A stretch of 37,060 nt of DNA, from positions 1 through 37,060 of the IMG/VR virus record IMGVR_UViG_3300020448_000736; one strand, written 5' to 3'. Source of the DNA: a virus. The position numbers were made by a program, and so were the translations under genes. The notes under the pieces are model-generated. The model saw only the letters and a list, made by a program, of their open reading frames with translations. It had not been told where the DNA came from and searched no databases. Numbering within the stretch: the first letter of the stretch is position 1; every line of letters starts with the position of its first letter. Shown one piece after another: positions 8,640-33,281 of this stretch.

Positions 8640-8640
8640 A

Positions 8641-9276: not shown

Positions 9277-9280
9277 ATAC

Positions 9281-9296: not shown

Positions 9297-9300
9297 CCGT

Positions 9301-10092: not shown

Positions 10093-10373
10093 GATTAATA
10101 CAACAAAGACCTAATACGTCTGTTGACTGGCATAATGCGGCTGATGAGTTTAAATCACTCAAAGAAAGTTATGTGTCTGCTGGTAAATTAGACGACCAAG
10201 GCGGTGTTGTATCTGGAAGTGATTTAATAAAAACTTGGACTTTAGTTTTCCCTAATGAGGAAAATTACAATGAGTTTTTAGCTGAATCTGTGAGATTAAC
10301 TTATTATAATGATATGCAACTCTATAACGAAAAAAACGGTATTTCAGACAGCATAGACATTCAAGACGTTTAA
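10077..10373 (+). CDS. Hypothetical protein, 98 residues
   Basis: This 98-residue protein overlaps the oxygenase gene by 16 nt and has a good ribosome site (GAGG, about 8 nt upstream of the ATG). It begins with a basic stretch (MAKRVRLIQQRPNTSVDW) and contains TWTLVFPNEENYNEFL near residues 54-70. It looks like a small globular alpha-beta protein with no membrane segment. I do not recognise a family. It is followed one base after its stop by the next rightward gene, so the three form one transcription unit. Confidence 0.75.
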   Translation: MAKRVRLIQQRPNTSVDWHNAADEFKSLKESYVSAGKLDDQGGVVSGSDLIKTWTLVFPNEENYNEFLAESVRLTYYNDMQLYNEKNGISDSIDIQDV

Positions 10374-10374
10374 A

Positions 10375-13052: not shown

Positions 13053-13846
13053 TTTAATTTTGAATAATCAAATGCTATTCTATGTAGCACTCTATCTTCC
13101 ATTTTTTCAAAGTAATGTCTTTTGTGAATACTTAACCATTGTTCACTTAATACAATATCACCATCTTGCCAATGATGGTCATATCTAAACTCATCTTTTA
13201 GTATATGATTTTTTAAAGTGTTAAATGTTTCATCATCTAAACCACCAAATACTTGTAAGAAAGGGAAGTATAATCCTGTTTTCTTAGCGTCATTAGTATG
13301 TACTAAATTAAACGGTCTATCTGTAGCGTGATGTTCTTTAAAAAATTTACTAGGACTATATGAGTCAACTTTATAACCCAATGTTATTTTAGTATTCTTA
13401 ATTTTTTCTTTAATATCTTCAGATAAATTGTTATAAGATTCTATATTATTAATCCAACTTGTAATACTACCTTTGGTGCCTTCAACACCATATAACCATA
13501 TCAATGGTTTTCTTTCATAATTACTGGCCTGGTTGGCGTGCCAATCTAAAGCTGAAGTATGACCAAATAATCCTTCTTCACCTCTATCATTTTTTTGACC
13601 GGTAACTCTTAACACACCATCTATTAGTGATATATCTTTTGCTCTATCAGTATTTGTGGACTGATATTCTCCAATAAAATTACAGAATCGTAATTGTTGT
13701 TCTGGTGATAAATTTTGATTTCTAATTACTACGACCATCTGACTTAAAACTAGGTCTGCTATTTTATGAGCAGTAGTTTCGTCAGCTTCAGATATATCTA
13801 TATCTTTAATTTCAACAGCCCAATCATTTAAGTATTCTATATTCAT
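13049..13846 (-). CDS. TauD/TfdA-like protein with HxN instead of HxD
   Basis: The 265-residue protein is TauD/TfdA-like from start to end: VVVIRNQNLSPEQQLRFCNFIGE (38-60), ALDWHANQAS (99-108), then SEQWLSIHKRHYF (234-246) with distal H241, and LHRIAFDYS with R256 for the cosubstrate carboxylate. TauD has WHTD at the first metal site; here the third position is Asn (N105, codon AAC), so one iron ligand is changed from Asp to Asn. Activity may be altered or lost. It is first in the four-gene leftward operon, with GGAG about 6 nt before the ATG and a late-promoter-like element upstream. Confidence 0.85.
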   Translation of the reverse strand: MNIEYLNDWAVEIKDIDISEADETTAHKIADLVLSQMVVVIRNQNLSPEQQLRFCNFIGEYQSTNTDRAKDISLIDGVLRVTGQKNDRGEEGLFGHTSALDWHANQASNYERKPLIWLYGVEGTKGSITSWINNIESYNNLSEDIKEKIKNTKITLGYKVDSYSPSKFFKEHHATDRPFNLVHTNDAKKTGLYFPFLQVFGGLDDETFNTLKNHILKDEFRYDHHWQDGDIVLSEQWLSIHKRHYFEKMEDRVLHRIAFDYSKLK

Positions 13847-16457: not shown

Positions 16458-16672
16458 TGTTTAGTATTGTTAAGAAATGGTTTGAAAGTGTTTTAAAATC
16501 TTATGATAAACCTAAAAAGAAAAGTGTTGTTGTAAGAGTTGGTGATTTACAATACAAAACTAAAAAAGAATTAGAAATTATCGGTAGAAAAATCGGTATA
16601 GAATTAGATAGAAGATACACAAAACAAAAATTAATTAACAAAATTAAATTTAAAGCAAAGAATAGAAGATAA
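16457..16672 (+). CDS. Small basic protein with SAP-like helix motif (GTG start)
   Basis: The 71-residue protein starts with GTG at 16457, supported by GGAGGG at 16443-16448, 8 nt upstream. The N-terminal 22 residues are amphipathic and Lys-rich; residues about 31-66 (LQYKTKKELEIIGRKIGIEL, then DRRYTKQKLINKI) fit the helix-turn-helix of SAP or Rho-N-like motifs, which often bind nucleic acid. It lies between two fibre genes and overlaps both by one base. That position suggests a virion or assembly protein, so the nucleic-acid reading should be held lightly. Confidence 0.7.
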   Translation: MFSIVKKWFESVLKSYDKPKKKSVVVRVGDLQYKTKKELEIIGRKIGIELDRRYTKQKLINKIKFKAKNRR

Positions 16673-17103
16673 TGTCAACCGTAATTAAACCAAAACGTTC
16701 ATTTACACCATTACAGATACCAGCAGCTTCAGCTCTTGAAATTGGTGAATTATCTATGAACGCCGCTGATGGTAAGTTTTATACTAAAATGCAAAACGGC
16801 ACCGTTAAAGAATTAGGTGGTGCTGGTTCTGTAATTTTACAAGACGTTACCACTAACGGTAATATTACTACAAACGATATTATACTTAACGGTTCAGACC
16901 TTGTATTTGAAGGATATCTAGCAAACGCTTATGAAACAACTTTAAGAGTGGTTGAACCAACGGCAGATAATATTGTTAGACTACCAAACGTATCTGGTGA
17001 TGTTATCACAACTGGAAATTTAACAAAAGATGGTACTGCTTCAGGTGACCCTTTAGCAGCTGAAGGTGACGCAGTAGCATTTGCTATCGCATTAGGAGGA
17101 TAA
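16672..17103 (+). CDS. Tail-fibre-like structural protein, 143 residues
   Basis: The protein begins STVIKPKRSFTPLQIPAASA and continues with ALEIGELSMNAADGKFYTKM, the same 'attachment then GELSxNxxDGKxYxK' pattern seen at the N-termini of long phage fibres. It ends after about 140 residues with GDPLAAEGDAVAFAIALGG, so it is a short member, perhaps a fibre tip or a truncated fibre kept as a separate protein. The middle (VEPTADNIVRLPNVSGDVITTGN) is a common fibre beta module. It overlaps the small basic gene by one base and is followed one base later by the next virion gene. Confidence 0.7.
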   Translation: MSTVIKPKRSFTPLQIPAASALEIGELSMNAADGKFYTKMQNGTVKELGGAGSVILQDVTTNGNITTNDIILNGSDLVFEGYLANAYETTLRVVEPTADNIVRLPNVSGDVITTGNLTKDGTASGDPLAAEGDAVAFAIALGG

Positions 17104-17104
17104 T

Positions 17105-17434
17105 ATGGCAAGTTCGTTTATAAATGCAGGTGCAGCCCTAAATGTAGGTGATTCGGCAAGTGCTAACGTTTATACTTGTCCGGCAGGCACAAAAGCAGTT
17201 ATCCACGCTTGTATGATATCTAATTTAAATCCTTCAGGTACCTCAAAAGGGACAATAAAAATTACGACAGACGGTGGCACTACTTTTAGACACGTTTTAA
17301 AAGATGGTGAAGTACCACCGAATGACACTTTACAGATGGATAAACCTCTAAATTTAGAGGCTGGCGACATAATTAGAATATATGGTGATGTATCTAATAT
17401 GGAATGTTTTTTATCAATATTAGAATTAACATAA
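17105..17434 (+). CDS. Small beta-rich virion protein
   Basis: This 109-residue protein has a jelly-roll-like or Ig-like strand pattern: NVYTCPAGTKAVIHACMISNL, GTIKITTDGGTTFRHVL, LQMDKPLNLEAGDIIRIYG, MECFLSILEL. Such small beta sandwiches occur in phage fibres and virion decoration proteins. A GGAGG ribosome site sits upstream of the ATG. I cannot name a family with confidence. Context, between fibre genes, is the main support for a virion role. Confidence 0.65.
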   Translation: MASSFINAGAALNVGDSASANVYTCPAGTKAVIHACMISNLNPSGTSKGTIKITTDGGTTFRHVLKDGEVPPNDTLQMDKPLNLEAGDIIRIYGDVSNMECFLSILELT

Positions 17435-17441
17435 AAACTTT

Positions 17442-17449
17442 TATAAATA
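17442..17449 (+). promoter_or_regulatory. T4-type late promoter (TATAAATA)
   Basis: Exact TATAAATA in the 46-nt gap before the ATG at 17481 (31 nt spacing), followed by AGGAGA. Drives the 150-residue protein and probably the 1238-residue fibre. Confidence 0.75.
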
Positions 17450-17480
17450 TAGATAGAATTTAAGTTAGGAGAAGACCAGA

Positions 17481-17933
17481 ATGGCACTAGTAGTTAATAA
17501 GGTTTATAATGCTAAAGACGCAAATGGTAAAGTTATTACTAGTGAATATGCTCTCCACGGAATGAAGAGAGACTCTGATGGTCTTTTAACTTATACTAAA
17601 GTAAATTGGTATAGTGGTGATACTATTAATATGGACAATGGTGAGGGTACTGCCTATAACTCTGTTGGTTCATTTCAAAAGAATGAATTAGAGTATAATA
17701 CGGCAGACGGATTATATAATACAGGTCATAATATTAATGATATTCCTGTTGAATATAATTCTTCAAATGACCCACGACAAGCCAATACTAAATTTAGAAA
17801 CTATGAGCAACACGTATTTGATGAAAATAAGGCGACATACTTTATAAATGATGATGGTTACTTGGTGTTAAGAATTGGAAGTGAATATACGTATAACTCA
17901 AAAGACGGTGCAACAGCAAACTGGACCGTATAA
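17481..17933 (+). CDS. Hypothetical virion protein, 150 residues
   Basis: The 150-residue, Asn/Tyr/Gly-rich protein starts MALVVNKVYNAKDANGKVIT. The region DINNxx-like NINDIPVEYNSSNDPRQANT (near 84-103) and the C-terminal YLVLRIGSEYTYNSKDGATA look like beta-structured fibre material. A late promoter (TATAAATA, 17442) and GGAG ribosome site precede it. It is not recognised as a known family. Its position directly before the 1238-residue fibre suggests a small structural partner of that fibre. Confidence 0.65.
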   Translation: MALVVNKVYNAKDANGKVITSEYALHGMKRDSDGLLTYTKVNWYSGDTINMDNGEGTAYNSVGSFQKNELEYNTADGLYNTGHNINDIPVEYNSSNDPRQANTKFRNYEQHVFDENKATYFINDDGYLVLRIGSEYTYNSKDGATANWTV

Positions 17934-17953
17934 TTAAAATATAGGAACGAACA

Positions 17954-20900
17954 ATGGCAGATTTTGTACTAGGTAGACTAAAGTTTCACTTCAAAGGTGC
18001 TTGGACTACCGGAACCGCTTATATCAAAGATGACGTACTTACTTATGGTGGTAATGCGTTTGTATGTAAAGTAAACCATACAGCTTCAGCAGATTTTTAC
18101 ACAGATTTAAACCACGCAACTGCCAAATGGGCGAAAATGGCCGGCGGTTTTGAATACAAAGGAAATTGGGCGGCAACAACTCTTTATAAAATTGACGACA
18201 TTGTTACCTTTGGTGGTTCAACATACAGATGTTTAACAGGACATACTTCACAAGCAGACTTATATGACGACAATGCTAAGTGGCAAACATTTGCCGCTGG
18301 TTTAGCTTGGAGAGGTGATTGGGCAACTTCAACATCTTATAGAAATGATGACATAGTTAAATATGGTGCAAACACATATCTATGTACAACTCAACACACA
18401 TCTTCAGGCACAACTTTAGATGAAACTAAATTTACTTTATTTGTATCAGGATTAGAATTTGAAGACTCTTGGTCTTCAGCAACTTTATACCAATTAGGTG
18501 ACATAGTAACCTACGGCGGTTATAACTATGTTGCTGAAAGAGCAAACAACAACGTTATACCTTATAACAACTCTTCAGATTGGAAATTATTAACAACAGG
18601 ATTTAATAACACAGGTAATTGGTCAAACTCTACAGCATATAAAACTGGAGATACCGTCAATCACGGTGGTCATTATTACGTGGCTAAAATTGATGGCACA
18701 GGTCAAGAACCAACAGGTACAACTAACTCATATTGGGATTTAGTCGTTGAAGGTTTATATTGGAGAAATAACTGGACTTCATCTACTGCTTACAAAATTG
18801 GTGACGCAGTATCACACGGCTCATCTTCATACAGAGCAAAAACAAATCACACAGCGTCTGCTTCAAACAGACCAGATGTTTCAGGTCAAACTGATTGGGA
18901 CTTACTTGCAGAGGGAGATTCAAACGCAACTCTAACTACAAGAGGTGATATTTTAACTAGAGACGCAACTCAACGAGTTAGATTACCAATCGGCGCTGCT
19001 GGTACTTTCTTAAAATCAGATGGTACTGATATTGTATGGGCATTACCAAATGTAGCAAACAAAGTTTATTACGTATCAACTTCAGGTGTTGATAATACAG
19101 ATACAGGCAGAGGTACTTCTCCTGAATTACCTTGGAGAACAATTAAATATGCTTGTTCACAGGTAGCTTCAGACACAGCAAATTTCAAAACAATTAAAGT
19201 TTCAACAGGAACATATACTGAACAATTACCAATTACGGTAGCTAGAAAAACTGCTATCGTAGGTGATAACTTACGAAGTGTTACCGTTTCGCCAGATACA
19301 ACAACTGACAACGGTGCTGGTGCAGGTATTTCAAGTGATGGTTCAACACCAAATAACAGACAAACAATGTTTAGATTAAATGATTCTTGTACACTAACTG
19401 GTATGACATTTAGTGGTATGACAGGTCAATTACAAGGTTCGCCAAGTGCAGATGGTATTACAAGACCAACAACAGGTACAGGTGCAACAGCAACTGGTGT
19501 TGTTTGTGCTCTTGACCCAGGAACAGGTCCTACTGATACATCAACTCACATTCTTTACAGGTCACCTTTCGTACAAAACTGCTCATCAATAGGTACTAGA
19601 GCAGTCGGTATAAAAATTGATGGTTCTTTACACAATTCAGGTAATAAATCAATTCTTGCAAATGACTTTACACAGGTTATAGATAACGGTATAGGTGTTT
19701 GGTTATTGAATGGTGCAAAATCAGAATTAGTATCAGTATTCACTTATTACTGCCACGTAGGTTATCTAGTAGATTCAGGTGGTGTAATGCGTTCACTAAA
19801 CTCTAACAACTCTTATGGTGAAAAAGGTTCTGTTGCTTCAGGTGTTGACCCTAACGAAACACCGGTAACATCAACGGTAACTACAAGAGATAATGAGGCA
19901 ATCATTGGTAGAGCATTAGTATCAAACGCTGGTGTTTACAGATTAGAACAAGAATACGCAGGTGAAACTTATACGTCTGCTACAGAGACAATAACAGGTT
20001 CAGGCGCAAATGCTAACTTCACGGCAGATATAACTGATGGTGCAGTTAAACATATTGATACAACAACAAATGGTGATGGTCACTTCACTACAATTGGTGT
20101 TGCTCAAGGTGGTTCAACTACAACTATCAGATTAGCAGCCGCTGATACACAGGCAGATGATTTCTATAATGGTATGAGAATTACAATTACAAGTGGTACT
20201 GGTTCAGGTCAAACTGCTTACGTTGGTGACTATACTTCAGCAACAAAAACTGCTACCGTTTTCAAAGAAGATGGCACAGCAGGTTTTGACGTGTTTGGTC
20301 CGACAAGTGTTGCAGTTGCTCCTAACGCAACTACAAACTATGAGATTGAGCCAAGAGTAACCATCACAGGCGGTGGTTCTCCTACAAGAAATGCATTAGC
20401 AAGAGTTGTAATTGAAAATCAAAAAATTAAAAAGTTCTTAATCATTGATGGTGGTGCAGGTTATTCAACTGCTCCTTCGGTAACGGTAACTGACCCTAAC
20501 GCAACAACAATAGGAACAGGTACAGCTACAATCGGTGACGGAGTAATTTCAAGATGGACTTATGTAGCTGCAGGTTCAGGTTATAAACAAGAGAACACAG
20601 CAGGTACCGTAAGCGGTGATGGTTATGCAGATATTTTACCAGTAGGCGCAACGGTAAAAACTTCAGGTTTATCTGCTTCACCAAAAGCAGGTTCAAGTAT
20701 TGTATTTTCAAACGCTTCAAGTGTAAGTTATATTATCGTAACCGTTCTTTCACACGCAAACGGCGGTATAACAAATTTAGAAGTGTCGCCAAATATTTCA
20801 AAAGCAAATGCTCCAACACACGGAACAACTGCTACGATTAGACAAAATTATTCTAATATAAGATTAACAGGTCACGACTTCCTAGATATTGGTACAGGTG

Positions 20901-21670
20901 GTATTTCAACAACAAATTATCCTGACTTAAATGGTTACACACAATCACCAGACCAAGCAGATGAAGTTGATGATTTAGACAGAGGTAGAGTATTCTATAC
21001 TTCAACCGACCAAGATGGTAACTTTAGAGTTGGTGAATTGTTTAGAGTAGAACAATCAACAGGTAAGGCAACATTGAACGCAGAAGCTTTTGACCTTTCT
21101 GGATTAAGACAATTATCTCTAGGTTCTGTTGCATTAGGAAATTTTGGTGCAACCGTAAATGAATTCTCAACAGATGGTACTTTAGGTGATAATTCTGATA
21201 ATGCTCTCGTTACCGAGAAAGCTATTAGAACATTTGTTGAAAACCAATTAGGTGGTGGTCAAAACAACTTGACCGTTAACTCTGCTGTAATAGGTGAAAT
21301 AACAATATCAGGAGCAAATATATCCGCTTCAACAGGAAATACGGTAAACTTTACAACAATACCAACAACAAGTATTGACCCGACAGCAGCAACACACATT
21401 GTTAACAAAAATTATGTTGATAGTTCGGTAACTCCTAATTTACAAACATTATCTTTTGATAGAGATACAGGACAATTAAACAGAAAAGTAATAACTAACT
21501 TTAACGTTGTAAATCAATATGAAGATACATTATTTAATGCTGCTGAACAAAATGCAGGTTTTGATGTAATTAACGGCTCTGTTAGAATTGAAATTGACAA
21601 AGCAGGAAATTTAATTTATAGAACAACAGGAGACGCTGAGCAAGGTGTAGAAACTCCTAGCAACGAGTAA
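17954..21670 (+). CDS. Large tail fibre: six carbohydrate-binding-like modules plus beta-helix-like body
   Basis: The 1238-residue protein has six tandem modules of about 50 residues at roughly 13-62, 66-115, 118-166, 169-215, 218-266 and 269-319. Each has the pattern W-x4-tAY-x3-D-x-V-x-yGg-x2-Y (for example GNWAATTLYKIDDIVTFGG), like the CBM5/12 chitin-binding fold. Next come a phage fibre linker (TTRGDILTRDATQRVRLPIG) and a body starting VYYVSTSGVDNTDTGRGTSP, typical of right-handed beta-helix proteins. Low-complexity Gly/Thr repeats follow. The modules probably bind cell-surface polysaccharide, and the body might hold a lyase or only a scaffold; no catalytic residues are obvious. It may be the main adhesin of a tail fibre. 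Confidence 0.85.
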   Translation: MADFVLGRLKFHFKGAWTTGTAYIKDDVLTYGGNAFVCKVNHTASADFYTDLNHATAKWAKMAGGFEYKGNWAATTLYKIDDIVTFGGSTYRCLTGHTSQADLYDDNAKWQTFAAGLAWRGDWATSTSYRNDDIVKYGANTYLCTTQHTSSGTTLDETKFTLFVSGLEFEDSWSSATLYQLGDIVTYGGYNYVAERANNNVIPYNNSSDWKLLTTGFNNTGNWSNSTAYKTGDTVNHGGHYYVAKIDGTGQEPTGTTNSYWDLVVEGLYWRNNWTSSTAYKIGDAVSHGSSSYRAKTNHTASASNRPDVSGQTDWDLLAEGDSNATLTTRGDILTRDATQRVRLPIGAAGTFLKSDGTDIVWALPNVANKVYYVSTSGVDNTDTGRGTSPELPWRTIKYACSQVASDTANFKTIKVSTGTYTEQLPITVARKTAIVGDNLRSVTVSPDTTTDNGAGAGISSDGSTPNNRQTMFRLNDSCTLTGMTFSGMTGQLQGSPSADGITRPTTGTGATATGVVCALDPGTGPTDTSTHILYRSPFVQNCSSIGTRAVGIKIDGSLHNSGNKSILANDFTQVIDNGIGVWLLNGAKSELVSVFTYYCHVGYLVDSGGVMRSLNSNNSYGEKGSVASGVDPNETPVTSTVTTRDNEAIIGRALVSNAGVYRLEQEYAGETYTSATETITGSGANANFTADITDGAVKHIDTTTNGDGHFTTIGVAQGGSTTTIRLAAADTQADDFYNGMRITITSGTGSGQTAYVGDYTSATKTATVFKEDGTAGFDVFGPTSVAVAPNATTNYEIEPRVTITGGGSPTRNALARVVIENQKIKKFLIIDGGAGYSTAPSVTVTDPNATTIGTGTATIGDGVISRWTYVAAGSGYKQENTAGTVSGDGYADILPVGATVKTSGLSASPKAGSSIVFSNASSVSYIIVTVLSHANGGITNLEVSPNISKANAPTHGTTATIRQNYSNIRLTGHDFLDIGTGGISTTNYPDLNGYTQSPDQADEVDDLDRGRVFYTSTDQDGNFRVGELFRVEQSTGKATLNAEAFDLSGLRQLSLGSVALGNFGATVNEFSTDGTLGDNSDNALVTEKAIRTFVENQLGGGQNNLTVNSAVIGEITISGANISASTGNTVNFTTIPTTSIDPTAATHIVNKNYVDSSVTPNLQTLSFDRDTGQLNRKVITNFNVVNQYEDTLFNAAEQNAGFDVINGSVRIEIDKAGNLIYRTTGDAEQGVETPSNE
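17990..18910 (+). repeat. Six tandem ~150-bp protein-module repeats (CBM5/12-like)
   Basis: Within the 1238-residue fibre gene, six in-frame units of 47-52 codons recur with the pattern W-x4-tAY-x3-D-x-V-x-yGg. DNA identity between units is low while the protein pattern is kept, so this is an old, selected repeat and not recent slippage. Confidence 0.8.
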
Positions 21671-21677
21671 TTATAGA

Positions 21678-21685
21678 TATAAATA
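21678..21685 (+). promoter_or_regulatory. T4-type late promoter (TATAAATA) with very short leader
   Basis: Exact TATAAATA 9 nt before the ATG at 21695. The predicted transcript leader is only about 3-4 nt, too short for a Shine-Dalgarno. The intergenic gap is only 24 nt, so read-through from upstream may supply the translated message. Confidence 0.65.
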
Positions 21686-21694
21686 GGATATAAA

Positions 21695-24600
21695 ATGGCA
21701 ATAACTAGAACAAAAATCGGAAATTTATGGTTTAATTATCGTGGCGAATACGATAATTCTATCGCTTATAAAAAAGACGATATCGTATTATGGAATAATA
21801 CTGATTACTTAATGATTAGAGAATCCGATACAACTGGTAAGAGACCAGAACAAAATACTAACTATCATTATAACATTCAGGTAACAACTGACCCTAGCGA
21901 TTCAACATCAAAATTTCAAATAGACGCTGATGAAACTTCTACTATCGAGTGGGCTACTGCTCTTTATGTAAGAAGAGGTGATAAAATTACTTTTTATCAA
22001 AATAATAATAACAATGATGACCAACCTTTGGCATTATCAACAACTGCTACAAGTCAAACTTCAAATTATTTAACTGAAGGTGTTTCTTATTATCATAATG
22101 AGGAACAAGTTTCTCAATCAGACTATGTAACCACAGCAAAATTTAATCCTAAAACTGCTAGAAGAGTGGTCGTTGAGTTTACAAAAGATACACCAGATGA
22201 AATTTATTACTTCTCTGCTGGTACAGGCGGTGCGAGTTATGGTGCAAAAATTGTAGTCGCAGATTGGGACACTTGGAGACCTTTAAGAAATTCATTTAAG
22301 TGGAGAAATTTCCACGTAAATACAAGCGGTACGGTTTATTATGAAAATGATATTGTAAAAGTTAGACACGGAATTAATAATGACCAAGGTACAGATTACG
22401 AGGGTCAATCAAAGAAAGAAACTTTATCAACTTATATCTGTTTAAGACAACATACAACAGATGGCACAGAAAGATTTTTACCTTATAACAGAAATGTTGA
22501 CACTAATGCAAATATGTATTGGATGAAAATGGGTGCTGAATATGAATCAGATGATGAGAGATATGAAAATAACGGTGTAATTGAAACCGTAAATAATATT
22601 TCAGCTGCTGACTCTTCAAGATTGCACGGAGTATTTAGAAATGTATCTCCTAAATCTACATCAAACTCAGCCGCTAACGTACATCCAGGTATGTTTAAAA
22701 TTACCGTTCAAGGTAATGGTAACATTTTAGATACAGACAATTTCGCAGCTGCTGACTCATCAAGAACAGCAGGTAAATATACAAACGTAACCCAATCAGC
22801 AACAACTGGTGCAGGTACGGCTGCTACTTTTGATGTTACCGTAGATTCAACAGGTGCAGTTTCAAAAATAGAAATTATTAAAAGTAGAAATAAATCAACT
22901 ACACCAACAGGTGGTTCAGGTTATGTTGATGATGAACAATTAACTATTGCTGACGCTTCATTAGGTGGCGGTGGTGCTGCTGACTTTACTTTCTCTGTAA
23001 ACGGAGTAGGTACAGCAGGTGCGGCTACAATTGAAGTAGAAAGAGAAAATAGAGATTCACAAAGACATAGAAGATATTTTAATGACACAGGTATGATTTC
23101 AGGTGGTGAAAATAATGTTGTTGGTGATACTTTAACTTTTGACGGAGATATATTTGGTGGTGGTGCAGATTTAACTTGTCAAGTTGCAACAACTAGAAAA
23201 CAAACTAGAGGTATGGCAACAATTTATACAGGTAACCCACACGAATGTGTATCTTTAATTAACAATGGACCTTTAGGTGATGATAACAAATATTACAGAT
23301 TATCAGGTCAAAGAACATCAAGACATTGTGTAGATTGGCCAGTATTCCACGGCGGTACAGGTAATATGTGGACTTGGGGTAGTTCTTCAACAGGTCAAAA
23401 CGGAATGGACCAAACATTTATGACTGCTACTCAAATGCAATTTCCTCACTATGATTGGTGGAGAAGTACAGACAATGGTGGTACAGGTGTTCACTCAACA
23501 CCAGATGGCGAAGTTCCTAAAATTATTCAAATAGAAGGTGGTTATGAGTCAGGTATGGCTCTTATGAATTCAGGTGAATTATATCATTGGGGTTATGGTG
23601 GTCACGGTCAAAATGGTGACGCTTCAACTTCAAACCGAAGTTATGCTGTAAGAGTTGGTGGTACAGATACAAACGTTTACTTAGCTGCTAACGATTCAAA
23701 CCACGTATTTAGAAGTGTAAGAATTAAAAGATGTTTCATATCAAACTGGCAAGGTTATAATGACAACACTCACTCTTGTTATGCAATTGATGAAGATGGT
23801 GAATTATGGTCTTGGGGTTATAACGGATATGGACAATTAGGTACAGGTAATACAACTAACTATAACGTACCTCAAAAAATTGCAAAAGCTTCTAACTTTA
23901 ACAATAGTGAAATAGAAGCGTTTTGGACTTGTGGTGAATCTTATGTAATGTGTTTAGCATATACTAAAGAGAAAAAATTATACGCTTGGGGTTATAACAA
24001 TAACGGACAATTAGGTATTGGTAATACTTCAAATCAAAATACTCCTCAAGAGGTAACAACGGTAACTTTTGATGGCACAGGTGTTGGTGAAATTAAAAAA
24101 GTTCAAATGTTATCAAGAAGTTCTAGTTTATCAGCAGGTATCTTAACTGAAAGAGGAACAATTTATATGGCAGGTTATAATAACCAAGGTCACTTTGGAA
24201 ATGGTAACACTACAAACTTAAACACTTGGACAATAGCGTCAAATGGTCCAGGTAATGCTTCAAATGCAGATTGTGAAAACTTTTGGTGGGGTGGTAATGG
24301 TGACTATGCTCAACAATGGGTTGAAGACTCACTAGGTAATATTTTATGTGCTGGTTACAATAACCATTATTCATTAGGTGATGGTTCAAATACAACTAGA
24401 AACGGATTTGTAACCCCTAAATTTCAATTAGGTTCAGACACAACAAGAGATTTTAAAAATGTTAAAATGATTTCTTTCTATCCTCATTATAATGATTTAA
24501 GTACAAAAATATTAACTTGGGACGGAATGTTATATGCTACTGGCGATAACAGATATGGTCAATGTGGTTTTGGTTGGACTTCAACTAACGGAACAGCAGA

Positions 24601-24856
24601 TAGAGATTCAGAAAACCAAAAAGAACACTTTAATAATGGCTATTTTATGCCAATGAGATTGCCTTCTTCAATGCAAGGTAAAGTCGAAGATGTTAGAGGT
24701 TGTGGTTATGGAAACAACTCTGACAACGTGTATGCTTTTTGGGAATACAAAACTTATGACAATAGATATTATCTAAATGGTTATGGTGGAAGTTATATAA
24801 TGGGAAATACTAACGGTGGTCAAAGAGATATCCCTAGTCCACCAATTTTAGGATAA
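21695..24856 (+). CDS. Tail fibre with N-terminal CBM-like module, degenerate cupredoxin-like domain and RCC1 beta-propeller
   Basis: In 1053 residues the order is: CBM-like module near 14-45 (YRGEYDNSIAYKKDDIVLWN), a domain near 60-180 that aligns with the copper domain of the next fibre but has lost its ligands (YYFSAGTGGASYG where the other has YYCSQHSGMG), Asn/Gly-rich linkers, and seven RCC1-type repeats starting near 555, 626, 702, 760, 820, 881 and 943. These read like GELWSWGYNGYGQLGTGNTT. Seven blades would close a propeller. In RCC1 proteins the propeller is a protein or ligand recognition surface; here it is probably the receptor-binding end. A late promoter lies only 9 nt before the ATG. 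Confidence 0.83.
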   Translation: MAITRTKIGNLWFNYRGEYDNSIAYKKDDIVLWNNTDYLMIRESDTTGKRPEQNTNYHYNIQVTTDPSDSTSKFQIDADETSTIEWATALYVRRGDKITFYQNNNNNDDQPLALSTTATSQTSNYLTEGVSYYHNEEQVSQSDYVTTAKFNPKTARRVVVEFTKDTPDEIYYFSAGTGGASYGAKIVVADWDTWRPLRNSFKWRNFHVNTSGTVYYENDIVKVRHGINNDQGTDYEGQSKKETLSTYICLRQHTTDGTERFLPYNRNVDTNANMYWMKMGAEYESDDERYENNGVIETVNNISAADSSRLHGVFRNVSPKSTSNSAANVHPGMFKITVQGNGNILDTDNFAAADSSRTAGKYTNVTQSATTGAGTAATFDVTVDSTGAVSKIEIIKSRNKSTTPTGGSGYVDDEQLTIADASLGGGGAADFTFSVNGVGTAGAATIEVERENRDSQRHRRYFNDTGMISGGENNVVGDTLTFDGDIFGGGADLTCQVATTRKQTRGMATIYTGNPHECVSLINNGPLGDDNKYYRLSGQRTSRHCVDWPVFHGGTGNMWTWGSSSTGQNGMDQTFMTATQMQFPHYDWWRSTDNGGTGVHSTPDGEVPKIIQIEGGYESGMALMNSGELYHWGYGGHGQNGDASTSNRSYAVRVGGTDTNVYLAANDSNHVFRSVRIKRCFISNWQGYNDNTHSCYAIDEDGELWSWGYNGYGQLGTGNTTNYNVPQKIAKASNFNNSEIEAFWTCGESYVMCLAYTKEKKLYAWGYNNNGQLGIGNTSNQNTPQEVTTVTFDGTGVGEIKKVQMLSRSSSLSAGILTERGTIYMAGYNNQGHFGNGNTTNLNTWTIASNGPGNASNADCENFWWGGNGDYAQQWVEDSLGNILCAGYNNHYSLGDGSNTTRNGFVTPKFQLGSDTTRDFKNVKMISFYPHYNDLSTKILTWDGMLYATGDNRYGQCGFGWTSTNGTADRDSENQKEHFNNGYFMPMRLPSSMQGKVEDVRGCGYGNNSDNVYAFWEYKTYDNRYYLNGYGGSYIMGNTNGGQRDIPSPPILG
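23355..24620 (+). repeat. RCC1-type repeat array, seven units
   Basis: Seven in-frame units of about 58-76 codons in the 1053-residue fibre gene share the core L-x-x-W/A-G-x-N-x-x-G-Q-L-G-x-G-N-T. Seven is the blade number of a closed RCC1 propeller. Confidence 0.8.
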
Positions 24857-24859
24857 ATA
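24852..24859 (+). promoter_or_regulatory. Late-promoter variant (GATAAATA)
   Basis: GATAAATA, overlapping the stop of the previous fibre gene, 19 nt before the ATG at 24879 with a weak purine-rich GAGAGAT ribosome region. One base from the consensus; probably a weaker late promoter. Confidence 0.5.
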
Positions 24860-24878
24860 ATAAGAGAGATAAAAAACT

Positions 24879-27800
24879 ATGGCAAAAATTAATTTAGGAA
24901 GAGTTAAATTCGCATTTCAAGGCGATTGGAATAATAATACAAATTATCGTAAAGATGATGTTTGTTGGTTTAATAACTCTTTATGGATTTGTACTAACCC
25001 TTACTTATCAAATGGTTACGACAATATGGCGCCAGGTGATAAGAACACAGGTTATTTCTGGACAAGAACATTCTCAAATGACCCGGATAGACGTAGAGGT
25101 TATCACATTATGGAAGATGACTTCCAAAGAAGTAATGAAACAGGTAATCCTGTAATCAATACTTCAAGATATGGTAATGATGAAAATACGCAAGAGTCAA
25201 CTAGAAACGGTCAAAGATTTGGCCAAGCAGATTACTTTAACAATAACTCAAATAACGGTGGTTATTTTTTAGATTATCAATCACACTTATTAGAAGATAA
25301 TGAAACTTACGCAATGGGTGACCCAGGTAATTTTATGGGTTATGGTGAGTTAAATACAAACAAAATTCAATTCTACCAAAATTATGTACCGGTAGAGAAT
25401 AACTTTCACGTAGAAATTCAAACTTCACCAGCAAATAAATTTAAAATTGATAATAGAATTGCAAGCTCAACTTTAGGAAGAAATACTTTTGGTGGCGAAG
25501 GCGGTGGTTTTAGAACATTTACACACTTTAAAGAAGGTTTTAAATATAGATTTAATCAAAGACACGAAACTAATAAAAATTTTCCATTAGGATTTTCAAC
25601 AACTGCTGATGGTATACATAACTCATCACCAGGAACATCACTAGCTGCTGATGAAGACGGACCATATTTTGTTGTAGGTACAACTACAGCAGGAGATACT
25701 GGAGTTTTCTATCCTTTATATCTATCAGCTGCAGGTGCAAATGCTGAAGATACAAGATTAGGTGGTGCAGGTTCAAGTGCTACTTTAAACTTTTCAGAAA
25801 TTACAAGAGGACCTAATAACGAATTAGTTTCAAATGAAAGTGGCACAAACTTTTATTTACCAGATATGATTGACTCAACTGCTGTTGATGAAAGAATATT
25901 TGAGGTTGCAGTAGTAGATGGTAACCCTAGTGACCACCCATATTACAATACAGGTTCTACAAAAAAATATTCTATCAATGGTTCAACTGCTACAGCAGAT
26001 GTAACCTTAAATTTAGTAGAGGGTAAAACTTATAGATTTGACCAATCAGACTCTTCAAACTTAACTCACCCTTTAAGATTTTCTACAACTGCTAATGGTA
26101 CTCACGCTTCAGGCTCAGAGTTCACAACAGGAGTAAGAACGGTGGGAACACCAGGTAAAAAAGGTGCATTTACAGAAATTAAAGTTAGAAAAGGTACTGC
26201 TAAATTATACTACTATTGCTCACAACACTCTGGTATGGGTTGGTCAGCAGACACAATTACACCAAGTTCAAGAGCAAGAAGTTTTGTACCTTCAAATACA
26301 CCAATGTACAAAGGTGCTAACAAAAACGGTTTAGTTAGATACTTCTTAAATAACAAACAGGTAACTGAAACACAATATAAAGAAACTTTTGCTGATACAA
26401 TACCAAATGAGGGTAATTCTTATACTGGTGATATGCCAGCATATACTACTGAAGATGGTTCTACAAGAGGTGGTCAGGTTTATTCTTGGAAGAAAAATCA
26501 AGATAGACAAGTTGAAATTTATATTCCTGTAGGTTTCTATAAACAAAGAAGTCAAAAAATTTATCCTTTCTGTTTAGACTCAGCGGCAACAAAAGCAGAT
26601 ATGTATTCTGATTTAGGTTGGGATGTAGAAGAGTCTTGGAGAGGTTACAAACATTGGGATAGATTACAAACAGGTATTAAATTTTGTGGTAAATATAATC
26701 CAGCTCACCACTACAGCTACAATGATATTGTAATTTACAGACCAGAAAAAAGATTATCAGATGGTGAAATATCACCTCAAGGTCCAACAGGTATTTACAG
26801 ATGTATTAGAGATTCAAAAGGTAGACCTCCTCATTATGGTCCTCAAGATGTTACCGTGTCGCCTTTAAGAACAAAATCTACAACAACAAGTGGTAAATTA
26901 ATTAGAAAAGAATATCAAGAATATCCAGCACACATACAATCATATTGGAATGATTGGGAATCTTTTGGTAGACAAGTTAACCAAGCTGAAGAGGCAAACG
27001 CTTGGTATGGTAACAAAGGTCCTATTCATTGGCCGTATAAACACTATACAGCAACATCTATGAATGATGATAACGTTTACAGACACATTGATAAAAACGG
27101 TGTATTATGGGGTATTAACTATCCTCAAACTGGTTTTCAACAAGATGGTTCTTATTACGCTTCATATTACGAAGAAATAAATTTAAGATGGAGAGATTGG
27201 TGGAGAAGTGAAGATTTAAACTATACAGGTTACAATGAAAATAGAGGCAGACATAGAAGTACGGTTAGAAAACCTTTAACAACACCTAGATGTGTTCAAA
27301 TTCAAGAAGGTAGACAAGGTGCTTCATTACTATTTGATAACGGAGAAGTTTACACAAACGGTGAAAACTCAAATGGTGAAATGGGAGTAGGTCACGAGCA
27401 AGGTGATAACTACGGATTTATGAGAGTTTTAGGTTTAGAAGATGTTAAAATTATTAAAATGGCAGAAAGACAATGGTCAAACAACACCCACCACAAAATG
27501 GCACTAGATGATTCAGGTTGTGTATGGGTTTGGGGTTATAATGGTTACGGCGAGATTGGTGATGGTAGAACACAAAATAAACCAGCACCTTATAGAATAC
27601 CAGCAAAATATTTTGACAACGAAAAAATTATAGACATTGCTTGTACAGACCAAAGTTCTTATGTAAGAACAGCTAGTGATACTTTGTATTCTTTTGGTAG
27701 AAATGGTAATGGACAATTAGGTGATAATACTACAACAGACAAATACAGACCTGTTAAAATGGCAAATTGGGATCCAAGTGCAAACAATGGTATCGCAGTA

Positions 27801-28505
27801 TGGCAAATATCTGGTCAAGGAAATAACGTTTGGGTTACTTTACTAGACGGAAACGGTTATACTTGGTTTACAGGTCATAATGACTATGGTAATTCAGGTG
27901 CAGGTAACACATCAAATTTAAGTCAATTAACTAAAATTGAAACAGCACCTAACGGTGACTTTGTTGATTTATGGACTATGTATTGGAATGGTTATAAGTC
28001 TTGTTTTGGTAGACACAAAGACGGAACAATGTATGGTTGGGGTTATTCAGGTAGTTATTACAACCTTGGTACAGGTCAAACTGGTAACCAAACATCACCA
28101 ACGCAAGTTCAAAACGTAAAAAATTGTAAAGAAATTTCTATATCTTGTAGTTATTCAGATTACGGTAGAAGTTTTTGGGTAGAAGATAGTGGATTGGCTT
28201 GGTGTTATGGTCAAGATTCTAGAAATGCAATGCTTCATCCGGTTGCAGGTAGTAATTACCAACAAGACGGTTCAAATTACTATCCATTTAGATGGTGGAC
28301 ACCTGCTGGTGCAAGAGTTAGAAATATGCACATAACAACAGATGACCAAGGTTCAAGTTCATATGCAGGTGGTTATAGATTTACAGATGAACACGGAAAA
28401 ATTTATCATTGGGGAAGAAATAACTGGTGTACTGGTCACAACTGGTGGACACACGGTTGGACTTCAACAGGTGGTTATGCATATAACCAGGGACACGGAA
28501 GATAA
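24879..28505 (+). CDS. Tail fibre with cupredoxin-like copper domain and RCC1 beta-propeller
   Basis: In 1208 residues the order is: CBM-like module near 14-45 (FQGDWNNNTNYRKDDVCWFN); a first cupredoxin-like domain near 186-280 without ligands; a second near 370-455 with H397 (NLTHPLRFS) and C447, H450, M453 (YYCSQHSGMG), the four type-1 copper ligands with amicyanin-like C-x2-H-x2-M spacing; a Tyr/Trp-rich region; and RCC1-type repeats near 740, 821, 880, 934, 992, 1049, 1104 and 1173 (VWVWGYNGYGEIGDGRTQN). The propeller is probably the receptor-facing part. The copper site could stabilise the fibre, bind metal, or be a relic of a domain spread among marine proteins. A GATAAATA promoter variant precedes the gene. 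Confidence 0.83.
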   Translation: MAKINLGRVKFAFQGDWNNNTNYRKDDVCWFNNSLWICTNPYLSNGYDNMAPGDKNTGYFWTRTFSNDPDRRRGYHIMEDDFQRSNETGNPVINTSRYGNDENTQESTRNGQRFGQADYFNNNSNNGGYFLDYQSHLLEDNETYAMGDPGNFMGYGELNTNKIQFYQNYVPVENNFHVEIQTSPANKFKIDNRIASSTLGRNTFGGEGGGFRTFTHFKEGFKYRFNQRHETNKNFPLGFSTTADGIHNSSPGTSLAADEDGPYFVVGTTTAGDTGVFYPLYLSAAGANAEDTRLGGAGSSATLNFSEITRGPNNELVSNESGTNFYLPDMIDSTAVDERIFEVAVVDGNPSDHPYYNTGSTKKYSINGSTATADVTLNLVEGKTYRFDQSDSSNLTHPLRFSTTANGTHASGSEFTTGVRTVGTPGKKGAFTEIKVRKGTAKLYYYCSQHSGMGWSADTITPSSRARSFVPSNTPMYKGANKNGLVRYFLNNKQVTETQYKETFADTIPNEGNSYTGDMPAYTTEDGSTRGGQVYSWKKNQDRQVEIYIPVGFYKQRSQKIYPFCLDSAATKADMYSDLGWDVEESWRGYKHWDRLQTGIKFCGKYNPAHHYSYNDIVIYRPEKRLSDGEISPQGPTGIYRCIRDSKGRPPHYGPQDVTVSPLRTKSTTTSGKLIRKEYQEYPAHIQSYWNDWESFGRQVNQAEEANAWYGNKGPIHWPYKHYTATSMNDDNVYRHIDKNGVLWGINYPQTGFQQDGSYYASYYEEINLRWRDWWRSEDLNYTGYNENRGRHRSTVRKPLTTPRCVQIQEGRQGASLLFDNGEVYTNGENSNGEMGVGHEQGDNYGFMRVLGLEDVKIIKMAERQWSNNTHHKMALDDSGCVWVWGYNGYGEIGDGRTQNKPAPYRIPAKYFDNEKIIDIACTDQSSYVRTASDTLYSFGRNGNGQLGDNTTTDKYRPVKMANWDPSANNGIAVWQISGQGNNVWVTLLDGNGYTWFTGHNDYGNSGAGNTSNLSQLTKIETAPNGDFVDLWTMYWNGYKSCFGRHKDGTMYGWGYSGSYYNLGTGQTGNQTSPTQVQNVKNCKEISISCSYSDYGRSFWVEDSGLAWCYGQDSRNAMLHPVAGSNYQQDGSNYYPFRWWTPAGARVRNMHITTDDQGSSSYAGGYRFTDEHGKIYHWGRNNWCTGHNWWTHGWTSTGGYAYNQGHGR
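27095..28485 (+). repeat. RCC1-type repeat array, seven to eight units
   Basis: The C-terminal third of the 1208-residue fibre gene has units near codons 740 (weak), 821, 880, 934, 992, 1049, 1104 and 1173 with the same core as the preceding fibre, for example TLYSFGRNGNGQLGDNTTTD. Confidence 0.75.
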
Positions 28506-28513
28506 TATAAATA
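28506..28513 (+). promoter_or_regulatory. T4-type late promoter (TATAAATA)
   Basis: Exact TATAAATA just after the stop of the copper-domain fibre gene, 27 nt before the ATG at 28541, with a strong AAAGGAGA ribosome site. Confidence 0.75.
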
Positions 28514-28540
28514 GTATTAATACTAAAGGAGAAAACTAAA

Positions 28541-28960
28541 ATGGCAAAGAAAGTGTTTAAAGTCAAAGAAATCGCTCTTGAAGCTGATTATGTGGCACCA
28601 GTCGTATCAAGCGGTAATGGTCCTCTTTCACTTCAGACTATGGATAGTTATGCTTTCTTTTCTTATGACGATTCGGAAGTTACCGTTGACGCTAGTGGTA
28701 CTAATGCAAGTAAATATGGTGTTAAAGTTCTTGACGCTTCAGACGCTGATGATTTAGCGGATATGAAAGCATTGAGACACACGGTATCAATTGCAATGGA
28801 AGTCGCAAGAAAAGTAGAAGATTTTGAAGCAGAATATCCAAAAGTTGTGGTTTATGACGCAATAATTAATGATGTTTCAGCAGTTAAAACAGCAATTGAA
28901 ACATTAAAAACAGATGTAAACGCTATATACGCAAACTACGGTTTACCGGCTATAGCATAA
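28541..28960 (+). CDS. Hypothetical virion-associated protein, 139 residues
   Basis: The 139-residue protein begins MAKKVFKVKEIALEADYVAP and has two parts: a beta-rich start (TMDSYAFFSYDDSEVTVDAS) and a helical second half (about 72-135) that could form a coiled coil. No family recognised. It has a full late promoter (TATAAATA, 28506) and the best ribosome site of the block (AAAGGAGA), so it may be made in quantity. It lies between two RCC1 fibres; a chaperone, joining or capping protein for those fibres is possible but unproven. Confidence 0.7.
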   Translation: MAKKVFKVKEIALEADYVAPVVSSGNGPLSLQTMDSYAFFSYDDSEVTVDASGTNASKYGVKVLDASDADDLADMKALRHTVSIAMEVARKVEDFEAEYPKVVVYDAIINDVSAVKTAIETLKTDVNAIYANYGLPAIA

Positions 28961-28982
28961 TAAAATAAAAGGTTAAACAAAG

Positions 28983-31226
28983 ATGGCTTTTGAATTAAAC
29001 GAATTTAAACTTAAATGGCAAGGTCCTTGGAGAGATAGAACAGCTTACTCCAAGAATGATATTGTTATGTGGAAAGGAAAATCTTATAGATGTATAAGAG
29101 ATTGTCCTGTAGCATATACATTATCAGGTGATTTCCTAGTTAACACATCTAACTATTCAATGGACCCAATGAGATTAGTCCAAAAGTCTTTTAGACCTGA
29201 CAATCCAAAATACTGGCAATTGTTTTTACGTTCAACAGATGATATTACAGAATGGGAATTTTGGAGACAATATGAACCAGGCGAAATGTGTTCAGTTGGT
29301 AGAAAAATTTATCAATGTATAAAAAGAACAAGACGTTATAATACTTGGGTTGAAGAACATAGAGGTGAGCCAAGTGAATATTGGATAAAAATTTACGAAT
29401 CACCATTTGCATATCCAGACAGAAATAGAACCGTATCGTACACTAACAGGACTCCTTTAGGTTGGAAGTACAATATGGGTAGAAATGCTAATGAAATGTG
29501 TACTCACTATTCATTAGGTGTTATAATGTCAAACGGAGACGCAATGCGTTGGGGTGGTAATGATGATACCGGAATGATGGGGAATGGTGACGGAACAAGT
29601 GGCTCAGGTAGAACAGGTAGACCACATATGACAGGTTTTACAAATATTGACTGGAGAACATCAACAGATAATAAAGATGTTGCAAAAGGCCACGAATTTA
29701 CAGGTCATATGGTAACACCAGACGCTGAAGCTCCGAAATGTATTCAATGGTGTACAGGTCATAACTTTAGTGTTTGGCTAATGAATAACGGTGAAGTTTA
29801 TACTTCAGGTTACAATGGTCATTATCAATTAGGTTATAACGAGGGTAGTTCAACAAACTCAACAAATAGAAATTATACAAACAGAGTATCAGCAAGTGAT
29901 ACGGTTGATTGGTTAGGAGATACAATACGTTCTTTTAACGATACAAAAATGGTAAAAGTTGGTACAACTTCTCAAGGACACCAATCAAGTGGTAAAGCAA
30001 TTTGGTCATTAGGTGAAGATGGTTCAGTTTGGATTTGGGGTTATAACAACCAAGGTCAAGCAGGTTTTGGTAATCCTAGTATCAATAACTCAACAGATAC
30101 TAACGGTGGTTCGCCTTACTCATTTTCATTTTATTCAGGAAATATAAGAAGACCAATTAAAATTCCTCAACAATTCTTTAACAACAAAAGAATTATTGAT
30201 ATGTGGGGCTCAGGTAACGAAGAAATGTATTGGCACGCCCTTGATGAAGACGGTTACTTATGGGCTTGGGGACAAGACGTTTACGGTTGCCTAGGAGTTG
30301 GTATGAATTCTCATACTTCTCAAGGTACTTATTACTACACAATTCCAAGAAGAGTTGAAATTAATTGGAATCAATATGGTGGTATGAAACTAATTCAACA
30401 TTGGTCTTATGACGGACAAGGTCACGCAGGTACTTGGGTACTAGATGGCGAAGGCTATATGTGGTACACAGGTTACTTAACAAACGGACAAGTTCCAGGT
30501 ATGTATGGTATTGGTGATAACAATACTGCTTATCAAGCTGAGTTTAGAAGAGGTGATTTTCACTTAAACGGTGATGTTGATGAATTCTGGTGTGGTGGTG
30601 ATGAAAACAAATGGATGTACATTAGACAAAAATCAACAGGTATGTTATGGGTAAATGATGGTAACTACGGAACATATGGTACTAGAGGTTCAAGAGTACA
30701 ACAAGGTTACTGGTATCAATCAGGCGGAATTCACGGAATGTTTTCTCATTTAAGAGGACCAAAATACGTAAGATATATTCAAGGTCAAAACTCTAATAGA
30801 GGTGATGGTTCATACATTTATGACTCACCTGGTATATTAGATGAAGATGGTGGACTCTGGTATGGTAATAATTACGGTTATAGATACTTTCCTTCATTAT
30901 CAAATGATAATCCTGATAATAATGATGACGGTTATCAAATGGATATGTCTCAAGGTTTTGAATCTAATGCTGAAAACAGACATAGAAAAAGAAGAGCTGT
31001 ACAACCTTGTAATAGTAAAATTGTGGACTTTGGTTCATACGGTTATCCAACGGTGATGAATTATTACTTTAGAGACCAAAATGGTAAATTATATACATCA
31101 GGTTATCAACCAAATAACCAAACATATATGTTTTCAATGATGCCCTACCGTTATCAGTCAGCAACTGGTTCATCTTGGGGAAGTAATAACTATCGTGCTC
31201 ATATGGCTTCATCGCCAGGTGATTAA
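28983..31226 (+). CDS. Tail fibre with CBM-like module and RCC1 beta-propeller
   Basis: The third RCC1 fibre has 747 residues. A CBM-like module opens it (WQGPWRDRTAYSKNDIVMWK, near 13-32), and a second related segment lies near 85-120 (YEPGEMCSVGRKIYQCIKRT). RCC1-type repeats begin near 185, 270, 347, 424, 491, 553, 623 and 701 (SVWIWGYNNQGQAGFGNPS, YLWAWGQDVYGCLGVGMN). The last ones are weak. There is no cupredoxin-like domain, which explains most of the shorter length. Three fibres with the same ends but different middles suggest duplication and shuffling. Probably a receptor-binding fibre. Confidence 0.83.
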   Translation: MAFELNEFKLKWQGPWRDRTAYSKNDIVMWKGKSYRCIRDCPVAYTLSGDFLVNTSNYSMDPMRLVQKSFRPDNPKYWQLFLRSTDDITEWEFWRQYEPGEMCSVGRKIYQCIKRTRRYNTWVEEHRGEPSEYWIKIYESPFAYPDRNRTVSYTNRTPLGWKYNMGRNANEMCTHYSLGVIMSNGDAMRWGGNDDTGMMGNGDGTSGSGRTGRPHMTGFTNIDWRTSTDNKDVAKGHEFTGHMVTPDAEAPKCIQWCTGHNFSVWLMNNGEVYTSGYNGHYQLGYNEGSSTNSTNRNYTNRVSASDTVDWLGDTIRSFNDTKMVKVGTTSQGHQSSGKAIWSLGEDGSVWIWGYNNQGQAGFGNPSINNSTDTNGGSPYSFSFYSGNIRRPIKIPQQFFNNKRIIDMWGSGNEEMYWHALDEDGYLWAWGQDVYGCLGVGMNSHTSQGTYYYTIPRRVEINWNQYGGMKLIQHWSYDGQGHAGTWVLDGEGYMWYTGYLTNGQVPGMYGIGDNNTAYQAEFRRGDFHLNGDVDEFWCGGDENKWMYIRQKSTGMLWVNDGNYGTYGTRGSRVQQGYWYQSGGIHGMFSHLRGPKYVRYIQGQNSNRGDGSYIYDSPGILDEDGGLWYGNNYGYRYFPSLSNDNPDNNDDGYQMDMSQGFESNAENRHRKRRAVQPCNSKIVDFGSYGYPTVMNYYFRDQNGKLYTSGYQPNNQTYMFSMMPYRYQSATGSSWGSNNYRAHMASSPGD
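29530..31130 (+). repeat. RCC1-type repeat array, seven to eight units (divergent)
   Basis: Most of the 747-residue fibre gene is made of units near codons 185, 270, 347, 424, 491, 553, 623 and 701. Spacing (60-85 codons) is larger and less regular than in the other two fibres; the last three units are weak. Confidence 0.7.
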
Positions 31227-32009: not shown

Positions 32010-32611
32010 TGGAGCAAGAGAAAAAATATAGAATAAAAGAGTTAACTTGGGAATATCATAAAAATGCTGAAAGACAGCAGTTTGTGAAATTACTTTTATC
32101 AGGTACTATTGATGAAAAACTATATGCAACATACTTATATAATCAATTAAAGTGTTATTCTAAATTAGAACAATATTGTTTAGAAAGTTCTTTGTTTTTA
32201 GATACTTTAAATCTACCAAGAGCTGAACATATATTTTATGATTACAGAGCGTTATGGGGAGATATAGGTAGTCCGCCAATAGAAACTGAAAGTACAAAAG
32301 CGTATGTTGAACATTTAGATACTATCAGAGGTGAAAATGAAAAACTATATGCTCACGTATATGTTAGACATTTAGGTGATTTATCAGGTGGTCAGATGAT
32401 TAAAAGAAAAACTCCTGGACCTAATAGATACTATATATTTAAACACGGTGAGGCAAAAGAATATAAAAGAATTGTTAAAGAAAGAGTTGAAAGTTATTTA
32501 AATTTATATGAGGTAAACGTGTTGCCAGAAGCAATCTTTTGCTTTGAAAGTGCAACAAAACTATTTAAGGAAATGTATGATTTGGGAAAGACTAATCAAG
32601 TGGCAAAATGA
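32009..32611 (+). CDS. hemO: Heme oxygenase (biliverdin-forming)
   Basis: The 200-residue protein has the full pattern of heme oxygenases: the proximal heme ligand H17 in TWEYHKNAER, a helical body (FVKLLLSGTIDEKLYATYLY), and the distal-helix Gly motif HLGDLSGGQM (121-130), which lets O2 bind heme. It opens heme to biliverdin, CO and iron using electrons from ferredoxin. Length is typical of bacterial and phage forms. It is coupled to the unknown gene upstream and overlaps the bilin reductase by 35 nt, so biliverdin would pass straight to the next enzyme. Host ferredoxin would be the electron source. The gene symbol follows the name used for such phage genes; ho1 is also used. Confidence 0.93.
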   Translation: MEQEKKYRIKELTWEYHKNAERQQFVKLLLSGTIDEKLYATYLYNQLKCYSKLEQYCLESSLFLDTLNLPRAEHIFYDYRALWGDIGSPPIETESTKAYVEHLDTIRGENEKLYAHVYVRHLGDLSGGQMIKRKTPGPNRYYIFKHGEAKEYKRIVKERVESYLNLYEVNVLPEAIFCFESATKLFKEMYDLGKTNQVAK

Positions 32612-33281
32612 GACTATTGAAGTCTTAAATAAAAATCTGGTTGAATACAAAGAACCGGGTATGGAAAGATTCAACAATGAAAAATTAGGTTGGGTCAATA
32701 GAACCTGGAATAACAGATATATTAGAAGAGCACATTTAGATGTTGTTGATGTAAGGGAATCAAAAGGACTATGGATGGCACATCTATGTCTTTTTCCTAT
32801 GTTAACAAATGGTGGACCGATTTATGGTTTTGATATTATAGCAGGTGAAAAGAAAGTCACCGGTGCCTTTCACGATTTTAGTCCTCTATTACAAAAAGAC
32901 CACCCATTAACAAAATGGTTTATAGAAGAAAATAAGTGGTTTAAACCGAGTAAAGAGAGAGAGTTACCAGATTGGGCGAAGGCTATCTTTTCGGGAGGTA
33001 TGATAGCCGCTGGTAATGTAAGAGAAGAAGATGAATTAAATAAAATTTGCACAATGGCAGTTTCTAATTTAAATAATTATATAGATAAAATTAGAAATCA
33101 CGAAGGCGAAGCAGATATAAAAGAAGTAATTAAAGCACAAAATTACTATTCTGAACATCAACAAAAGAATCCACACACGCCTAGAGTTATGCAATCTCTT
33201 GGTTTGCCTGAAGAGGATATTAAATTATTCTGTTCGGACAACCTATTTCCGTTTGTTTCAGAAAACCAACCCTACTTGTAA
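32577..33281 (+). CDS. pcyX: Ferredoxin-dependent bilin reductase, PcyA/PcyX type
   Basis: From the ATG at 32577 (AAGGA about 5 nt upstream) the protein has 234 residues; a longer frame to 32544 has no such site. It matches the HY2/PcyA/PebS family: AHLDVVDV (H53, D55), WMAHLCLFP (H69), PIYGFDIIAG (D86) and TGAFHDFSP. In Synechocystis PcyA the matching residues are H74, E76, H88 and D105, so the catalytic His/Asp pair is kept while E76 is Asp. E76 serves reduction of the 18-vinyl group, so the product may be phycoerythrobilin, as reported for the phage enzyme PcyX, not phycocyanobilin. The subfamily name is inferred from this residue and from the hemO context. Confidence 0.88.
   Translation: MIWERLIKWQNETIEVLNKNLVEYKEPGMERFNNEKLGWVNRTWNNRYIRRAHLDVVDVRESKGLWMAHLCLFPMLTNGGPIYGFDIIAGEKKVTGAFHDFSPLLQKDHPLTKWFIEENKWFKPSKERELPDWAKAIFSGGMIAAGNVREEDELNKICTMAVSNLNNYIDKIRNHEGEADIKEVIKAQNYYSEHQQKNPHTPRVMQSLGLPEEDIKLFCSDNLFPFVSENQPYL

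Follow-up and report, generated by a model that had tools for sequence, protein, structure and literature searches.

A tail fiber of a marine T4-like phage carries a domain predicted to be a cupredoxin with a complete type-1 (blue) copper ligand set, and modeling together with sequence comparison indicates that this blue-copper-type module is real and recurrent in marine phage fibers, representing a new lineage and a new setting of the cupredoxin superfamily. The fiber is encoded in the window, i.e., the whole stretch of 37,060 nucleotides analyzed here (IMG/VR record IMGVR_UViG_3300020448_000736), which is part of such a phage. The reading we favor, with somewhat better than even confidence, is that the domain is a cupredoxin with an intact copper site that serves as an extracellular fiber building block, becomes loaded with copper after lysis, and is stabilized by the metal.

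The tail-fiber setting proposed in the initial annotation is well founded. The C-terminal half of the 1208-aa protein is an RCC1-type propeller, ahead of which the cupredoxin domain sits in the N-terminal half, and homologues are annotated as tail fibers. Since fiber residues 343–463 match the PHROG tail fiber families 30742, 27200, and 693, phage members of the domain family are already grouped in PHROG, where these families are named tail fiber or unknown and have no copper or cupredoxin annotation. The fiber genes (14748–31226) are followed by those for a head–tail adaptor, head closure, and a tail sheath stabilizer, and the neighbors of the ORF are fibers, neck proteins, and the sheath stabilizer (Table 1). 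Four large fiber ORFs form a run at 17954–31226, one with six CBM_5_12-type repeats and three with RCC1 propellers. Elsewhere in the window, a sugar-modification-like cluster lies mainly on the minus strand (275–13846) and comprises glycosyltransferases, a Nol-like carbamoyltransferase, an aminotransferase, three radical SAM proteins, and a dioxygenase, and within the virion gene run a PHROG "ferredoxin oxidoreductase" match was recorded at 32544–33281 (E 8e-20).

Table 1. Features of the fiber region, in coordinates of the window
Feature	Position	Strand	Evidence
Tail fiber ORF, 1208 aa, containing the cupredoxin domain	24879–28505	+	RCC1 and RCC1-like domain matches; PHROG tail fiber families
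Cupredoxin domain, residues 340–465	25896–26273	+	AF2 pLDDT 93.1; 50 of the 50 VIA matches listed are cupredoxin-fold
His397, predicted first Cu ligand, directly ahead of a strand	26067–26069	+	Translation, model, alignments
Cys447, predicted Cu ligand, end residue of the next-to-last strand	26217–26219	+	Translation, model, alignments
His450, predicted Cu ligand, in a loop	26226–26228	+	Translation, model, alignments
Met453, predicted axial Cu ligand	26235–26237	+	Translation, model, column conservation
RCC1-like beta-propeller, residues 798–1117	27270–28229	+	PF25390, E 1e-38; PF00415, E 8e-24
Diverged ligand-less copy in the 1208-aa fiber	25398–25856	+	47% identity over 36 aa; 41.7 bits; Phe at the His position (NFPLGFST); CxxHxxM absent
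Weak ligand-less relative (DDQPLALST) in the preceding fiber ORF (21695–24856)	21884–22096	+	E 0.003, 15.5 bits; suggestive only

Translation of the fiber ORF placed H397, C447, H450, and M453 exactly where the initial annotation had put them. The domain that it claimed for residues 372–456 also stood, but the limits did not, as the first strands had been missed. The CxxHxxM motif occurs only once in the fiber, His397 and Cys447 are ∼50 residues apart, and when the entire protein sequence was shuffled 20,000 times at constant composition, a His lying 38 to 58 residues ahead of a CxxHxxM motif arose 47 times (∼0.2%). When the domain aligned with 31 relatives was given to AF2, the resulting model (pLDDT 93.1, pTM 0.86) showed, in its own numbering, H58 ahead of strand E60–63, C108 at the end of E104–108, and both H111 and M114 ahead of E116–121. 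The four residues are thus predicted to stand in the canonical order and topological place of type-1 copper ligands, and translation, model topology, alignments, and conservation agree on the complete layout with a short, amicyanin-like CxxHxxM loop that had been suggested at the outset. This loop by itself does not define the amicyanin family, and amicyanin was matched only weakly, in the Foldseek listing and in a family-profile search of the PDB; on so weak a match, the domain is not filed as an amicyanin.

Whether the fold was that of a cupredoxin had been set beforehand as the test that could refute the proposal, and the predicted fold is a cupredoxin one, i.e., a Greek-key beta-sandwich of ∼8 strands with cupredoxin topology. 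All 50 VIA matches listed were cupredoxin-fold proteins, with moderate Z values. The best was the N-terminal cupredoxin domain of the three-domain nitrite reductase 2dv6 (Z 8.1, 2.9 Å, 98 residues aligned), and further matches included rusticyanin (Z 7.3), small laccases, and the Nitrosopumilus purple cupredoxin (Z 6.4). Although 2dv6 and rusticyanin are the best structural matches, they share only 13 to 15% identity with the fiber domain and, unlike it, are redox proteins (enzymes or carriers) whose partners are known. A Foldseek search of the model against the PDB returned nothing below E 0.001, and its listing mixed Ig-like with cupredoxin chains. In BFVD, the model matched Pithovirus and Marseillevirus "beta-sandwich proteins" (A0A481Z6J5 and A0A481YWX9, E 1e-8 to 3e-6), and some giant virus proteins may therefore share the fold.

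At the sequence level, the window domain by itself had no above-chance match in Pfam, NCBIfam, or the PDB by phmmer. For the plastocyanin/azurin family (PF00127 Copper-bind, which includes amicyanin and pseudoazurin), neither the fiber nor the domain reached the Pfam cut-off, and one of 32 relatives matched at E 0.06; since this curated cut-off was tested and missed, we do not file the domain as PF00127. Profile comparison reached further. When a profile built from the viral copies was compared by hhalign with one built from 30 PF00127-type proteins, the two aligned at P 2e-5 and a probability of 77%, with the Cys and both His ligands in matching columns. After all four ligand positions had been masked, the probability was down to 7.6%, and much of the signal is therefore the site itself. 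In addition, two marine bacterial sequences bridge the families. One, L119, reached 30.2 bits against PF00127, for which the cut-off is 21.2, and also matched the phage-domain profile at 29.6 bits, every ligand being aligned, while the other, L107, matched the phage profile strongly (102.6 bits) and PF00127 around its threshold (20.4 to 24.0 bits). A profile of the family plus bridges, which contains L119, retrieved the nitrite reductase NirK (E 3e-5) and plastocyanin and pseudoazurin (E ∼0.007) from the PDB. PDB matches obtained with another profile, A1, were antibodies aligned around "YYC" and were dismissed as chance. By these comparisons, bridging sequences and profile matches connect the domain by homology with the plastocyanin/azurin superfamily, a relationship that is not detectable from the window sequence by itself.

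We also analyzed how the ligands are conserved. Among 226 distinct full-span copies, the four positions read HCHM in 213, HSGY in 9, NSNL in 2, and DCHL in 1, and in the remaining copy, gp7 of phage P-HM1, the Met is shifted by one residue. Cys, His, and Met are thus absent together in 11 of the 226, His397 and Met453 are both missing from the DCHL copy, and, the Met shift in P-HM1 gp7 apart, no aligned copy had lost one ligand alone. The four ligand columns fall within the nine most conserved of 109 (mean identity 37%), and dN/dS among the closest relatives of the window domain was 0.09 to 0.29. Since the ligands are kept or lost mostly as a unit among the 226 copies, the alignment points to a working metal site.

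The same data bear on whether the domain is instead an ordinary Ig-like or carbohydrate-binding beta-sandwich that bears the motif by chance. Such a sandwich would fit the weak matches to CBM_4_9 that 9 of 32 relatives gave and the Ig folds among the Foldseek matches, but the VIA listing contained cupredoxins only, L119 provides a bridge to PF00127, and the PDB profile search retrieved blue-copper proteins. Because all four residues are kept in 213 of the 226 distinct full-span relatives, the chance motif is largely refuted, and we regard this explanation as extremely improbable.

Copies without the site nevertheless exist, and they count against the favored reading in that the module persists when the ligands are gone. 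In L030, the rest of the domain is kept (EGQTYRFDQSDSSN, EYTTGVTT, GTPG), but N, S, N, and L occupy the four ligand places. The copy in phage P-TIM40 is also without CxxHxxM; when this copper-less copy was used as the query, 54 of the 64 copies fetched lacked the motif, so the ligand frequencies given above depend on the query. Ligand-bearing and ligand-less copies also occur together in the 1208-aa fiber, although AF2 modeled the diverged copy with low confidence (pLDDT 36). A large copper-less subfamily (L310, L304, L318, L328, and relatives), located at the N-terminus of phage proteins, has "YYYSSGGGTYG" in place of YYYCxxHxxMG.

One rival to copper as the occupant is that the site is real but holds zinc, iron, or no metal, with the residues kept for loop packing. 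The existence of the copper-less sister copies fits this view, as does the very low level of free copper in the cytoplasm, since the fiber is probably made in the apo form. However, the exact type-1 layout His...Cys-x2-His-x2-Met, Met included, is present in 213 of 226 copies, Met is not favored in zinc sites, and packing alone would permit single substitutions, whereas Cys, His, and Met are mostly lost as a block. We consider a non-copper site unlikely, if still worth weighing. Under the favored copper-loaded reading, in which copper binding by the domain is inferred from the conserved ligands, the fiber would be made copper-free in the host cytoplasm, and each domain would take up one copper ion after lysis; we place loading at that stage because the cytoplasm holds little free copper. 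The metal would then tie the Cys–His–Met loop to the strand behind His397, and the module, projecting from the virion and stabilized by the bound metal, may help to present the fiber surface to the host.

The initial annotation had regarded such a domain as unexpected in a phage adhesin while suggesting the use of a widespread marine domain; the latter proved correct, and the domain is no exception, since hundreds of marine phages carry it. Relatives were found in at least 593 IMG/VR stretches and in 74 phage isolate records, the names of which nearly all give Synechococcus, Prochlorococcus, SAR11, or OM43 as host. The isolates are cyanophages, pelagiphages, and methylophages, and secreted adhesins of marine microbes also carry the domain. 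Among the annotated proteins that contain it are tail fibers and further structural proteins of the virion, as well as P-HM1 gp7, a baseplate wedge protein. In small phage proteins of ∼240 to 280 aa (L204:1320–2066, L048:7617–8342, and L230:2497–3333), an N-terminal "WNG...KHPQ" is conserved and the cupredoxin is the last domain. Marine bacterial and archaeal single-cell and MAG contigs also carry the domain, in some cases within RTX, laminin-G, FG-GAP, or cadherin-like proteins; copies in the first three kinds we count in favor of an extracellular module. Bacterial counts are upper bounds, however, because some of the "cell genome" loci are phage genes, e.g., L100 and L109, which have T7 fiber domains. 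A poorly resolved tree of phage and cell copies required 16 label changes, at least two of them forced by supported branches, and gives no direction of transfer. On sequence grounds, the domain forms a family shared, with and without the metal site, among marine phage fibers and secreted adhesins.

This distribution informs two functional alternatives. Type-1 copper sites elsewhere carry electrons, and the fiber could likewise trigger a step of infection by sensing or exchanging electrons in the periplasm or at the cell surface. Yet the analysis turned up no redox partner and none is known, fibers of the same kinds also contain ligand-less copies, and the cell-encoded copies examined were adhesin-like proteins without redox enzyme domains. 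We found no evidence for either the redox or the sensing role envisaged initially, and such a role appears very improbable.

The other alternative is metal-mediated docking, in which a copper-loaded or copper-seeking domain acts in adsorption, e.g., at a copper or metallophore receptor of the host outer membrane. In T7-like fibers, those of pelagiphages among them, the domain is located close to the C-terminus, the end that usually binds receptors; examples are the PF03906 fibers L100 and L109 and the fibers of Baldr (residues 610–708 of 759) and HTVC028P (621–716 of 767). Metal in phage fibers has a precedent in the "Ferrojan horse" proposal, which deals with tail-borne iron and is relayed by PMC10892097 citing Bonnain 2016. 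However, that proposal, as relayed there, concerns another metal, whereas here the predicted site lies inside a single cupredoxin domain and a receptor link is unsupported; moreover, in PMC10892097, tonB/feoB mutants did not lose their sensitivity to phages predicted to use an iron route. Docking to host copper receptors by analogy with iron is thus possible but unsupported. In the window fiber, the domain precedes the propeller and belongs to the N-terminal half; other carriers include a wedge protein of the baseplate and small proteins (e.g., L204); and one module in phages of hosts as unlike as Prochlorococcus and SAR11 argues against a single receptor. We therefore hold docking to be unlikely. 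That fiber copper in marine phages forms part of host recognition, with the module binding a copper-handling surface protein of the host or responding to surface copper, seems to us more doubtful still.

Compared with known systems, the fiber domain resembles the PF00127 family in fold and in how its four ligands are ordered and placed, and amicyanin in its short loop. It differs in scoring below Pfam detection, in the ∼50-residue spacing of His397 and Cys447, and in having Pro after the first His (HPLRF), where the PF00127 proteins fetched mostly have Asn. The roles known for cupredoxins are those of electron carrier and oxidase domain, but unlike the soluble carriers of PF00127, this domain is built into a 1208-aa virion fiber. 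Cyanophages carry plastocyanin (petE), of the same superfamily, as a metabolic gene; petE is a stand-alone electron carrier gene, whereas the fiber domain is part of a virion protein. In the open-licence PMC literature, we found no paper joining cupredoxin or plastocyanin-like with tail fiber. The sole cupredoxin/cyanophage match there concerned Borgs, and the paper on the OM43 phage Melnitz names tail fibers and mentions copper for EM grids only.

A complete predicted site is kept in virion fibers of abundant marine phage groups, infecting Prochlorococcus, Synechococcus, SAR11, and OM43, in the form of a domain that Pfam does not contain. Because this domain is present in hundreds of marine phages, copper in phage fibers may be common in the sea. 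The natural copper-less sister copies, from which Cys, His, and Met have gone together, offer ready controls for the role of the metal. If the sites are filled, virions would make up a reservoir of copper bound to protein, and the metal could influence fiber stability or adsorption; if the host-recognition reading were true, copper supply would shape phage adsorption in the ocean.
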